Source: Phyllobacterium bourgognense (GTDB lineage Bacteria; Pseudomonadota; Alphaproteobacteria; Rhizobiales; Rhizobiaceae). From it: a DNA stretch of 64,000 bases. The translations under genes and the position numbers were made by a program. Of the stretch, positions 57,732 through 60,803 are shown one piece after another. The notes beneath the pieces are model-generated. The model worked only from the letters and a program-made list of their open reading frames with translations. It did not search any database and was not told where the DNA came from. The DNA lies in NCBI RefSeq assembly GCF_003337575.1, contig NZ_QPJM01000001.1:186001-250000 (forward strand). Direction: 5' to 3'. How positions within the stretch are numbered: the stretch's first letter is position 1; each line of letters begins with the position of its first letter.

Positions 57732-57910
57732 ACTGTAGCGGCGTATCGACCGGTCTTGTACCCATTGGGCCGCAATTTACTTCCAGAGTCTTTTCGACCG
57801 CGAACGCCTGGATGGGCGAGGGCATCCTCCATAGTTAGGATTTACCGCCTCCACCCTTGTCATTCTTACCCATATGTGAAAAGATTATTCACAAGAGAAG
57901 ATGTGGGAGG

Positions 57911-58513
57911 ATGACTTATGAGATTGCAGAGGCAATGTCCACTGGCAATAGCCTTGCGGCCATGACCGATTTTGCGCCGACCGTTGGCGTCTCCTCCACG
58001 TATCCGAAAGACATGCCGGGAGACCATGCCGCGCTGCCCGTGTGGAACGCCGAGAACTGGTTTTACGAGGATTGGCCAGTGGGGCAGAAGATACGATCGT
58101 TGCGCCGGACAATAGCCGAAAGCGATAGCCACCTATTCAACATGCTGGTTACCGATCTTCACCCCTATGTGCAGGACCAGATGTTTGCCGAGAGCGAGGG
58201 TATTTTCGGCAAACGGCTTGTTGCCGGCGCTTTCGTGTTTTCTGCGGGCCTAGGGCTCGTGGCCACCAATTGCGTCAATGCTTTTTCCTATGGCTATGAC
58301 AAGTTGCGTTTCATCAAGCCGGTCTTCCTCAATGACACGATCTACACGATCCGCACCAATCTGGATAAGCGCCCGCGCTACAAGGAGTTGGGCCTGATCC
58401 GTGCGAGCTATCAAGTGTACAAGAACGAGGGTGAACTCGTTCTGTATTGCGAACATTTGCAGACTGTAAAATACCAAAAGCCCGCCGATTTCGTTGGAAA
58501 GACCGAGAAATAA
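57911..58513 (+). CDS. MaoC family dehydratase-like protein
   Basis: About 200 residues of hot-dog fold: [33 protein letters not shown] then [21 protein letters not shown], the MaoC/R-hydratase pattern; the catalytic Asp/His of classic hydratases are matched by D and H in [16 protein letters not shown]. The start is uncertain (ATG 57911, 57935 or 57962; the best ribosome-like stretch is AGAGG before 57935). The stop overlaps the start of the CoA-transferase gene (TAATG), so they are coupled. Confidence 0.82.
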
Positions 58514-59673
58514 TGACTACCGAGAATGAACTACCATTGGCTGGCCTGCTAGTCGTCGATATGAGCCAGTTCCTGTCCGGACCTTACGCTTCACTGCGCC
58601 TGATGGATCTCGGCGCTCGTGTCATCAAAATCGAGCGGCCTGATGGAGGTGACCTCTCTCGCCGGCTTTATCTGAGCGATACGGAAATCGGTGGCGACTC
58701 GACCATTTTCCATGCGATCAACCGCGCCAAGGAAAGCCTCGCGATTGACATTAAGAACGAGGCTGATCTTACAGCCCTGAAATCATTGCTCGCCAACGCC
58801 GATGTGCTGATCCAGAATTTTCGCCCCGGTGTCATCCAGCGCCTTGGTCTCGACTACGAGGCAGTGAAGGCAATCAACCCGCGTCTCGTCTATGCCAGCA
58901 TTTCAGGCTATGGCGATGAAGGTCCGTGGGTTTCTCGCCCGGGCCAGGATCTGTTGGCGCAGTCCCGTTCCGGGCTGATGTGGTTGAACGGCGACGAGAG
59001 CCAAGGGCCAGTGCCGTTTGGACTGGCGGTAGGCGATATGCTGGCGGGCGCGGCGATCGTGCAGGGCATTCTCGCCTGTCTTGTCAGGCGCGGCATCACT
59101 GGCAAGGGCAGCCACATCGAGACAAGCCTGATGGAATCGCTCATCGACTTCCAGTTCGAAGTTTTGACCACACATTTGAACGATGGCCGGCGCCTGCCAA
59201 AACGTTCGGATTTCCGCAGTGCCCATGCCTATCTTTCCGCCCCCTACGGCGTCTACCACACGAAGGACAGCTATCTGGCGCTCGCGATGACCCCGCTACC
59301 GAAATTGGCAGACTTACTCTCGCTCGATGATCTGGCGCCCTACCGCGACACCCCGGCTACATGGTTCACGGCGCGCGACGAGATCAAACGCATTATCGCT
59401 GCCCGGCTCGAAACCAAGACCACCGACCATTGGCTCGCCATTCTCGAACCGGCCGATATCTGGTGTGCCAAGGTGTTGAACTGGGAGGAGCTTTTGGAAA
59501 GTGAAGGCTTCAAGGTTCTCGACATGTTGCAGACAGTGGAGCGCGACGACAATGTTTCGATACTCACTACACGTTCGCCCATTCGGGTAAACGGACTGCG
59601 CGCGAAGTGTAATCGCGCCGCGCCACGTATCGGCGAACACAGCGAGGCGATCCGTAAGGAGTTCGGCCTGTGA
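58513..59673 (+). CDS. CaiB/BaiF class III CoA-transferase
   Basis: 386 residues. Family features: LPLAGLLVVDMSQFLSGPYASLRLMDLGARVIKIERPDGGD at the start, NFRPGVIQRLGLDYEAV, and the catalytic Asp175 in LAVGDMLAG. It moves CoA between carboxylic acids without a ping-pong intermediate on Glu. Substrate unknown. It overlaps MaoC at its start (one base) and the binding-protein gene at its end (GTGA), giving a three-gene coupled unit. Confidence 0.92.
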   Translation: MTTENELPLAGLLVVDMSQFLSGPYASLRLMDLGARVIKIERPDGGDLSRRLYLSDTEIGGDSTIFHAINRAKESLAIDIKNEADLTALKSLLANADVLIQNFRPGVIQRLGLDYEAVKAINPRLVYASISGYGDEGPWVSRPGQDLLAQSRSGLMWLNGDESQGPVPFGLAVGDMLAGAAIVQGILACLVRRGITGKGSHIETSLMESLIDFQFEVLTTHLNDGRRLPKRSDFRSAHAYLSAPYGVYHTKDSYLALAMTPLPKLADLLSLDDLAPYRDTPATWFTARDEIKRIIAARLETKTTDHWLAILEPADIWCAKVLNWEELLESEGFKVLDMLQTVERDDNVSILTTRSPIRVNGLRAKCNRAAPRIGEHSEAIRKEFGL

Positions 59674-60803
59674 GCGCTATCAAACTCAAAGGCATGACAT
59701 GGAGCCATCCGCGCGGCTTTGATCCGATGGTTGCCTGTTCAAAACTTTGGAAAGAACAGACCGGCATAGACATAGAATGGGAAAAGCGCTCACTACAAGA
59801 TTTCGAGTCCTTTCCTGTCGAGGAACTGGCGCGGAAATATGATCTGATCGTCATCGATCATCCGCATGTCGGCCAGATCACAGCCGAAGATTGTCTTGCG
59901 CCGCTCGATGTGCCGGGGCGTGAGACAGAGCAGCAAGCGCTTTCCGCCGGAAGCGTCGGGCAGTCCTATCCAAGCTATCATTGGCAGGGGAGGCAATGGG
60001 CGTTTCCGATCGATACCGCGACGCACGTTTGTGCGTGGCGGCCCGACCTGCTCGAAGATTCGCCAGCAAGCTGGGACGAGGTAATGGGTCTGGCCAAGGC
60101 GGGCAGGGTCCTGTTACCGCTGCGTCCTCCCCACTCGCTGATGACGTTTTATACGTTAAGCGGCAATGTTGGCTCGCCTTGTGCGGTCACGGGGGAACTG
60201 ATTGATCTCGAAAGTGGAATTCGTACTTTCGGAATGATGCGTGAAATTGTTGCATTGATTGATCCCGCCTGCTTCGAAATGGATCCCATTGCGGCGCTGG
60301 AGAAGATGAGCGAGGCCGGTTCGTACATTGCCTGCGCGCCGTTGATCTATGGCTACGTCAATTATGCCATCGATGGTTTCAGGCCCAATCTCGTCGCCTT
60401 TGCTGATATTCCCGCCGCGGGTGATGGCGGTCCTGCGGGTTCGGCGCTAGGGGGCACAGGCATCGGTGTATCGGCATTTTCAACAAACCGCACCGCAGCT
60501 ATCGATTTTGCTTACTGGATTTCCAGCGGCGACGTACAGCGTGGACCGTACGCGTCAGCGGGAGGTCAACCGGCACACGCGGACGCTTGGGAAGACGAAA
60601 CTGTTAACAAGGCGACGACAAGCTTCTACGCAGCAACGCGCAAGACGCTTGAGGCTGCCTGGGTGCGCCCACGCCATAAGGGTTATATGGATTTTCAAGA
60701 AGCCGCGTCAGATCGACTCAATGCGGGCCTTTTGCACCGCCACGCTGCGCCGAACGTCATCGACGATCTGAACGCGCTATTTCGACAAAGTTTTGCCGGA
60801 TAA
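59670..60803 (+). CDS. Solute-binding-protein fold protein without signal peptide
   Basis: 377 residues. The GTG at 59670 overlaps the CoA-transferase stop (GTGA) and has TAAGGAG ahead of it, so this start is well supported; there is no room for an N-terminal signal. The chain begins SAIKLKGMTWSHPRGFDPMVACSKLWKEQTGIDIEWEKRSLQDFE, a family 1 extracellular solute-binding pattern, and has a typical SBP C-terminus (YWISSGDVQRG). With no Sec or Tat signal, no lipobox and no permease or ATPase nearby, a role as cytosolic binding protein or enzyme partner of the CoA-transferase and MaoC protein is inferred. Confidence 0.8.
   Translation: MSAIKLKGMTWSHPRGFDPMVACSKLWKEQTGIDIEWEKRSLQDFESFPVEELARKYDLIVIDHPHVGQITAEDCLAPLDVPGRETEQQALSAGSVGQSYPSYHWQGRQWAFPIDTATHVCAWRPDLLEDSPASWDEVMGLAKAGRVLLPLRPPHSLMTFYTLSGNVGSPCAVTGELIDLESGIRTFGMMREIVALIDPACFEMDPIAALEKMSEAGSYIACAPLIYGYVNYAIDGFRPNLVAFADIPAAGDGGPAGSALGGTGIGVSAFSTNRTAAIDFAYWISSGDVQRGPYASAGGQPAHADAWEDETVNKATTSFYAATRKTLEAAWVRPRHKGYMDFQEAASDRLNAGLLHRHAAPNVIDDLNALFRQSFAG

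Follow-up and report, generated by a model that had tools for sequence, protein, structure and literature searches.

The window analysed here is a 64,000-nucleotide stretch of the Phyllobacterium bourgognense genome (G000, contig C1, positions 186001-250000). It contains a trio of genes encoding a MaoC-family protein (MaoC1), a family III coenzyme A (CoA)-transferase (CaiB) and a protein with the fold of a solute-binding protein (SBP), hereafter SBP' (Table 1), which is 93% identical to its nearest named relative from Phyllobacterium trifolii. The initial annotation described the three genes as overlapping, and the coordinates read from the window bear this out: MaoC1 and caiB share a TAATG junction (stop 58511-58513, ATG 58513), and caiB and SBP' a GTGA junction (GTG 59670, stop TGA 59671-59673). 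The Shine-Dalgarno sequence of SBP' is a good match and ends 8 nt 5' of the GTG. To judge by its sequence, SBP' is translationally coupled to caiB.

Table 1. Features of the trio and its upstream region in the window
Feature	Position	Strand	Basis
Palindromic operator-like site CATATGTGAA-N7-TTYACAWRAG, upstream of the trio	57871..57897	+	
MaoC1, MaoC-family hydratase/dehydratase	57962..58513	+	Pfam PF01575, start conservation, nearest solved chain
CaiB, family III CoA-transferase (CaiB/BaiF)	58513..59673	+	Pfam PF02515, 2.5e-98
Shine-Dalgarno AAGGAG for SBP', within the caiB 3' end	59656..59661	+	Read from sequence
SBP', signal-less CUT1-type solute-binding-fold protein	59670..60803	+	Pfam SBP_bac_8, 2.8e-13

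None of the three proteins reaches an NCBIfam cut-off. MaoC1 contains a MaoC hot-dog domain (MaoC_dehydratas, E 4.8e-13, 49.2 bits against a cut-off of 27), and its nearest solved chain is 4ffu_A (E 1.9e-18). CaiB contains a full-length CoA_transf_3 domain spanning residues 9-377. It scores below the cut-off in all seven NCBIfam models matched, the best being succinate-glutarate CoA-transferase (214.6 of the 750 bits required), and reaches no characterised specificity group. Downstream of position 60803, four open reading frames (ORFs) were scanned against Pfam, of which three had no match and one was transglutaminase-like; no transporter was among them, the remaining, mostly overlapping ORFs lying outside the scan. 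The earlier statement that no permease or ATPase accompanies the trio holds locally, although a co-conserved importer with its own SBP is encoded elsewhere in the genome.

The solute-binding fold and its N-terminus

A family 1 solute-binding fold had been proposed for the third gene product, in agreement with its Pfam match and with the AlphaFold model, which predicts a complete sugar-SBP fold (pLDDT 96). All family models matched by SBP' are binding-protein models. Among the 50 Foldseek matches listed, 49 are described as binding proteins or as maltose-binding-protein fusions and one (5v6y_B) names neither; no SBP-fold enzyme is named among them. Conserved residues were read from an alignment of the window SBP' and 58 further copies (59 sequences), drawn from 99 copies after leaving out 39 that were at least 85% identical to a kept one and two with internal stops (L047 and L063). 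In L063 several neighbouring genes are split as well, which suggests frameshift errors. R15, H64, R333 and R335 are invariant in this alignment and H13, R40 and H66 nearly so, and the invariant residues are predicted to occupy SBP ligand-loop positions. Potential acid/base residues that are invariant over the 59 diverse sequences are D63, H64 and D115, with H13 and H66 nearly invariant. In the register of the trehalose/maltose-binding protein (TMBP), SBP' has an invariant A117 and a nearly invariant T263 where TMBP has D and W.

The initial annotation held that the GTG start leaves no signal peptide or lipobox. In the window, the frame is open for only 12 nt 5' of the GTG, so a signal peptide from an upstream start is impossible. 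A simple hydrophobicity test, used in place of a trained predictor (mean Kyte-Doolittle value of at least 1.6 over 11 residues within the first 35), was applied to 121 distinct copies of the SBP' family and to 51 copies of the exported SBP that belongs to the associated importer. A signal-like N-terminus was found in none of the 121 SBP' copies (median 0.56, maximum 1.59) and in all 51 exported SBPs (median 2.18, minimum 1.69). In each of the 121 SBP' copies, a start codon lies in the range from 45 nt 5' to 15 nt 3' of the aligned start, and in 50 of them the frame is open for fewer than 18 codons upstream. Start codons located a further 45-400 nt upstream yield no hydrophobic stretch of at least 2.0 in any copy. 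Homologues with a signal from an upstream start, which the initial annotation named as evidence that would speak against it, were therefore absent among the 121 copies, and a misannotated start or missed signal peptide was rejected on the same counts. Furthermore, a conserved LxGMTWxHPRG motif begins at residue 6 of SBP', the position at which exported SBPs have their mature first strand. From sequence, SBP' appears to be cytosolic in the whole family. Public records name it 'extracellular solute-binding protein' or 'ABC transporter substrate-binding protein'.

Gene neighbourhood and a putative L-fucose regulon

Gene neighbourhoods were counted in the 98 distinct loci whose sequence extends 3 kb or more on each side of SBP'. 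In 89 of these, CaiB is encoded no more than 3 kb from SBP'; in 76, a MaoC lies within about 10 kb, and the exported SBP of the importer described below is present in the fetched stretch of 51. Sorted by identity to the window SBP', a nearby CaiB was found in 69 of 74 loci at 55% or above, in 11 of 11 at 40-55% and in 9 of 13 below 40%. Among the 74 most similar loci, 63 have a caiB whose end lies no more than 20 nt from the SBP' start. Recurrence of the gene order in other Hyphomicrobiales had been proposed as a check, and the CaiB-SBP' pairing recurs both there and far outside the genus, with carriers including Variovorax, Streptomyces and Persicobacter (Bacteroidota). The SBP' family was detected in 18 of 398 genomes spread over the phylum (E 1e-25) and in 41 of 297 genomes of the order (E 1e-20), a distribution that is therefore patchy.

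Ten loci contain two full-length caiB genes near SBP', which are sometimes divergent (L053, L059, L060, L062, L071, L158, L160, L166, L169 and L170) and possibly encode a paired or heteromeric CoA-transferase. A second ATP-binding cassette (ABC) importer, of the ribose type, lies 3' of SBP' in 13 loci, mostly of Mesorhizobium (L013-L015, L018, L020, L024, L027, L028, L038, L040, L041, L048 and L051); it comprises two ATPase genes, permeases and an SBP-like gene whose product has a signal-like N-terminus. On a Croceibacterium plasmid (L169:1-19119), SBP', two CaiB and MaoC are encoded among a beta-galactosidase, a large glycosyl hydrolase, a TonB receptor, a sugar ABC importer whose operon contains another SBP-like gene, and a D-lactate dehydrogenase.

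Across many loci of Hyphomicrobiales, the next genes after the trio encode an amidohydrolase and an IclR regulator on the opposite strand, and beyond these lie the genes for an exported SBP, two permeases and a UgpC-type ATPase. The most complete annotated cluster is that of Pararhizobium qamdonense (L107; others are L106, L167 and L168), which continues with an enolase-superfamily dehydratase, mutarotase, Gfo/Idh/MocA oxidoreductase, second MaoC (MaoC2), SDR, fumarylacetoacetate-hydrolase (FAH)-family protein and L-fuconate dehydratase. In Sinorhizobium meliloti ml21 (L105), which has a single annotated caiB, SBP' and the amidohydrolase gene are separated by an IS21 element and an argH-ABC segment. 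The window's own genome encodes the same gene set at C6:88184-99549, on a different contig from the trio, with no FAH-type gene in the 19 kb read. One gene of this C6 cluster (L122:12282-13559) matches L-fuconate dehydratase 1yey_A (E 4.7e-168); its very best structure match, 4ip4, bears a superfamily name only, and the remaining cluster enzymes match below curated cut-offs. From sequence, the trio is placed with a deoxysugar regulon, which the fuconate-dehydratase match and the gene set mark as probably of the L-fucose type. Beside the cluster, two genes (L122:14268-16600) are close to glycine betaine monooxygenase GbcA/GbcB, below curated cut-offs (513/670 and 386/500 bits). No phenotype for a C6-type fucose cluster was found in the literature searched, and nothing on this importer was found under the locus tag SMb21103 or in the passages of PMC9007349 consulted. 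A different, CUT2 L-fucose SBP of S. meliloti is SMc02774 (PMC3454389).

The trio and the importer are inherited together. Among the 297 genomes of the order, the exported SBP was detected in 20 (E 1e-60), all of them within the 41 that have SBP' (Fisher p 4e-20, uncorrected for shared ancestry), and 21 of the 41 have SBP' alone. In the genus, 19 of 20 genomes contain both proteins and the remaining one contains neither. The two are unlinked (on different contigs or far apart) in 17 of these 19 and adjacent in two, in the order CaiB, SBP', IclR, importer, mutarotase, Gfo and MaoC2. By these presence patterns, trio and importer are tied together by more than proximity. A distant, co-conserved permease/ATPase pair, which the initial annotation anticipated as contrary evidence, is present in the form of this importer. 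As the importer has its own signal-bearing SBP, SBP' does not become an importer subunit and the trio is instead placed with the deoxysugar regulon; the idea that SBP' is a missing subunit of the importer was rejected for the same reason. The exported SBP and SBP' are alike only in a 60-residue piece (30% identity, E 0.004). Over 39 loci (220 sampled pairs), evolutionary distances of SBP' correlate with those of CaiB at 0.91, the amidohydrolase at 0.82, IclR at 0.76 and importer parts at 0.75-0.76; the corresponding value for the exported SBP and permease is 0.92.

Proposed function and competing explanations

We propose that SBP' binds a ligand in the cytosol with its CUT1 sugar-SBP fold and serves CaiB as a dedicated partner in a deoxysugar, probably L-fucose-type, catabolic regulon, a reading to which we give an even chance. 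The sugar would enter via the regulon's own ABC importer with its exported SBP and then be oxidised to an acid. SBP' could close on this anionic sugar acid, or on a downstream acid, via R15, H64, R333, R335, H13, R40 and H66, and either present it to CaiB for CoA activation or gate CaiB in response to it, after which MaoC would dehydrate or hydrate the CoA ester. The ligand is most likely an anionic, sugar-acid-like intermediate bound in the cytosol for the CaiB/MaoC branch. The initial annotation had suggested a cytosolic ligand-binding protein or scaffold that feeds a CoA-ester pathway; an SBP fold that is cytosolic by sequence and made with CoA-ester enzymes, in a conserved pairing, stands, while the ligand, a scaffold role and the action on the pathway stay conjectural.

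Several observations weigh against the proposed role. Forty-seven of the 98 loci have no exported SBP in the fetched stretch, and SBP' was found fused neither to CaiB or MaoC nor to any other query protein (same-frame matches inside SBP' frames, E 1e-8). In L064-L066, SBP' and MaoC occur in a putative fucose cluster with no CaiB in 21 kb; CaiB lies about 3.9 kb from SBP' in L131 and is absent within 3 kb in L132-L135 and L163. Other loci, among them L012, L016, L017, L021, L023 and L025, contain the CaiB-SBP' pair without a MaoC match in the stretch. On pSymB of S. meliloti 1021 (L104:7301-8460), the caiB upstream of SBP' is split over two overlapping frames, and the 26 kb read contain no MaoC match. 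Part of the distance correlation may be caused by gene linkage alone, and SBP' is the least conserved of six cluster proteins (median identity 0.71, versus 0.72 for the amidohydrolase and 0.84 for CaiB). The canonical MaoC hydratase motif is GDxNPLH; MaoC1 lacks it and has the consensus V-x-D-x-H-P-Y-V over 59 distinct sequences, which leaves its activity uncertain. Lastly, the operator-like site of the trio is absent from the C6 fucose cluster at up to three mismatches, as is its shorter palindrome from contig C6 at up to one.

Going further, SBP' might be an obligatory subunit or enzyme of a CoA-dependent sugar-acid pathway, a possibility that we put forward tentatively. CaiB would charge a 6-deoxy-aldonate held by SBP', and MaoC proteins would dehydrate a 2,3-dihydroxyacyl-CoA to a 2-keto-3-deoxy-acyl-CoA; this route from the aldonate is a guess.

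The main rival, which we regard as less likely than the partner role, is that SBP' itself catalyses one step of the CoA pathway as a dehydratase, lyase, lactonase or isomerase. Its invariant and nearly invariant acid/base residues would suit such a role, and in R. rhizogenes SBP' is encoded directly between MaoC2 and an SDR dehydrogenase with no CaiB nearby. Cyclohexadienyl dehydratase is reportedly an SBP-derived enzyme, from a different SBP branch than SBP'. Precedent for enzymes evolved from SBPs is given in PMC7683729; like these, SBP' has an SBP fold outside transport and invariant charged residues. The matches of SBP' to binding-protein family models only, and the lack of an SBP-fold enzyme among the Foldseek matches listed, argue against an enzyme, the latter weakly as fold is uninformative on catalysis.

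The fucose connection could also be a chance of neighbourhood, with the trio degrading some other carboxylic acid and travelling with sugar clusters. Variovorax and some alphaproteobacterial copies adjoin TRAP transporters (DctM match), and the loci and order genomes without the exported SBP, together with the split caiB of S. meliloti 1021, are in keeping with this explanation; the joint presence or absence in all 20 genomes of the genus, despite the frequent lack of linkage, and the nesting of all 20 importer-bearing genomes of the order make it improbable. SBP folds serve as sensor domains elsewhere, and IclR regulators adjoin SBP' in many clusters, so that SBP' might act as a sensor or regulator in the cytosol, signalling a metabolite to a transcription factor or an enzyme while remaining outside the reaction. 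We consider this quite improbable, given that the steady partner of SBP' is CaiB, to whose gene it is translationally coupled. That SBP' is an ordinary ABC-importer SBP with a misannotated start or non-classical export, as its public labels imply, is hardly credible in view of the 121 N-termini, their upstream regions and the importer's own, barely similar exported SBP.

The CUT1 sugar SBPs TMBP (1eu8), MalE3 (6dtq) and sulfoquinovosyl-binding SmoF (7ofy) share their fold type with SBP' at only 16-18% identity. CUT1 importer SBPs have a Sec signal or lipobox and serve a permease/ATPase pair that has no other SBP, whereas SBP' has no signal-like N-terminus and its co-conserved importer has an exported SBP of its own. 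Since these two defining features were tested and not found, SBP' is not filed with the importer SBPs. Its usual neighbour is a CoA-transferase, and no permease is translationally coupled to it in the window. In Haloarcula, a family III CoA-transferase is said to act with a MaoC-family hydratase, and we know of no SBP partner of this pair. It consists of succinyl-CoA:mesaconate CoA-transferase and mesaconyl-CoA hydratase (PMC5592240). The pair resembles CaiB and MaoC here, but CaiB scores 194 bits with the NCBIfam mesaconate CoA-transferase model, far below the cut-off of 700. The known oxidative L-fucose pathway has, to our knowledge, no CoA step, CaiB, MaoC or cytosolic SBP. Fucose dehydrogenase, fuconolactonase and fuconate dehydratase are enzymes of this pathway (PMC11378808), and the cluster in the window's own genome likewise has an L-fuconate-dehydratase-family protein, mutarotase, amidohydrolase, SDR and Gfo/Idh genes.

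No description of a cytosolic SBP with CaiB/MaoC was found in the open-access literature among the matches listed. While the SBP fold, CaiB and MaoC are already known, a conserved SBP branch that lacks a signal and is linked to a CoA-transferase is not described within the literature searched. If the proposed function is correct, the SBP fold would perform a conserved task in the cytosol alongside a CoA-transferase, and sugar catabolism of soil and symbiotic bacteria would have a CoA branch, which we know of in no current pathway model. On the further-reaching reading of SBP' as an obligatory subunit or enzyme, a sugar-binding fold that is normally exported would have turned into a cytosolic component of a CoA-transferase system, found in at least three phyla under an extracellular or transporter annotation. 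Because genetically tractable rhizobia carry this small, conserved module, the question is directly testable.

The upstream region and the MaoC1 reading frame

The palindrome TGTGAA-N7-TTCACA occurs with up to two mismatches in 44 of 52 distinct trio-upstream regions, which stem from related genomes, compared with approximately 0.8% of base-shuffled regions. The site upstream of the trio is the only one in its genome at up to three mismatches to the longer pattern, so an operator shared with the C6 cluster was rejected as a candidate. By eye only, the half-site CATATGTG shows a resemblance between the trio and the fucose cluster.

The initial annotation placed the MaoC start at 57911, from where the frame is indeed open. 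The conserved start is instead ATG 57962: of the 44 loci compared, 40 have a start codon at precisely this position, and the additional peptide encoded by the longer frame is seen again only in L005-L007. A 15-codon frame with a good Shine-Dalgarno sequence (GGGAGG) occupies positions 57918-57965, its TGA overlapping the MaoC ATG, and is weakly conserved as judged by eye. MaoC2 reads GDffPHH (GDxxPHH) at the hydratase motif, and a SYGYDxLRF-like stretch is common to MaoC1 and MaoC2.
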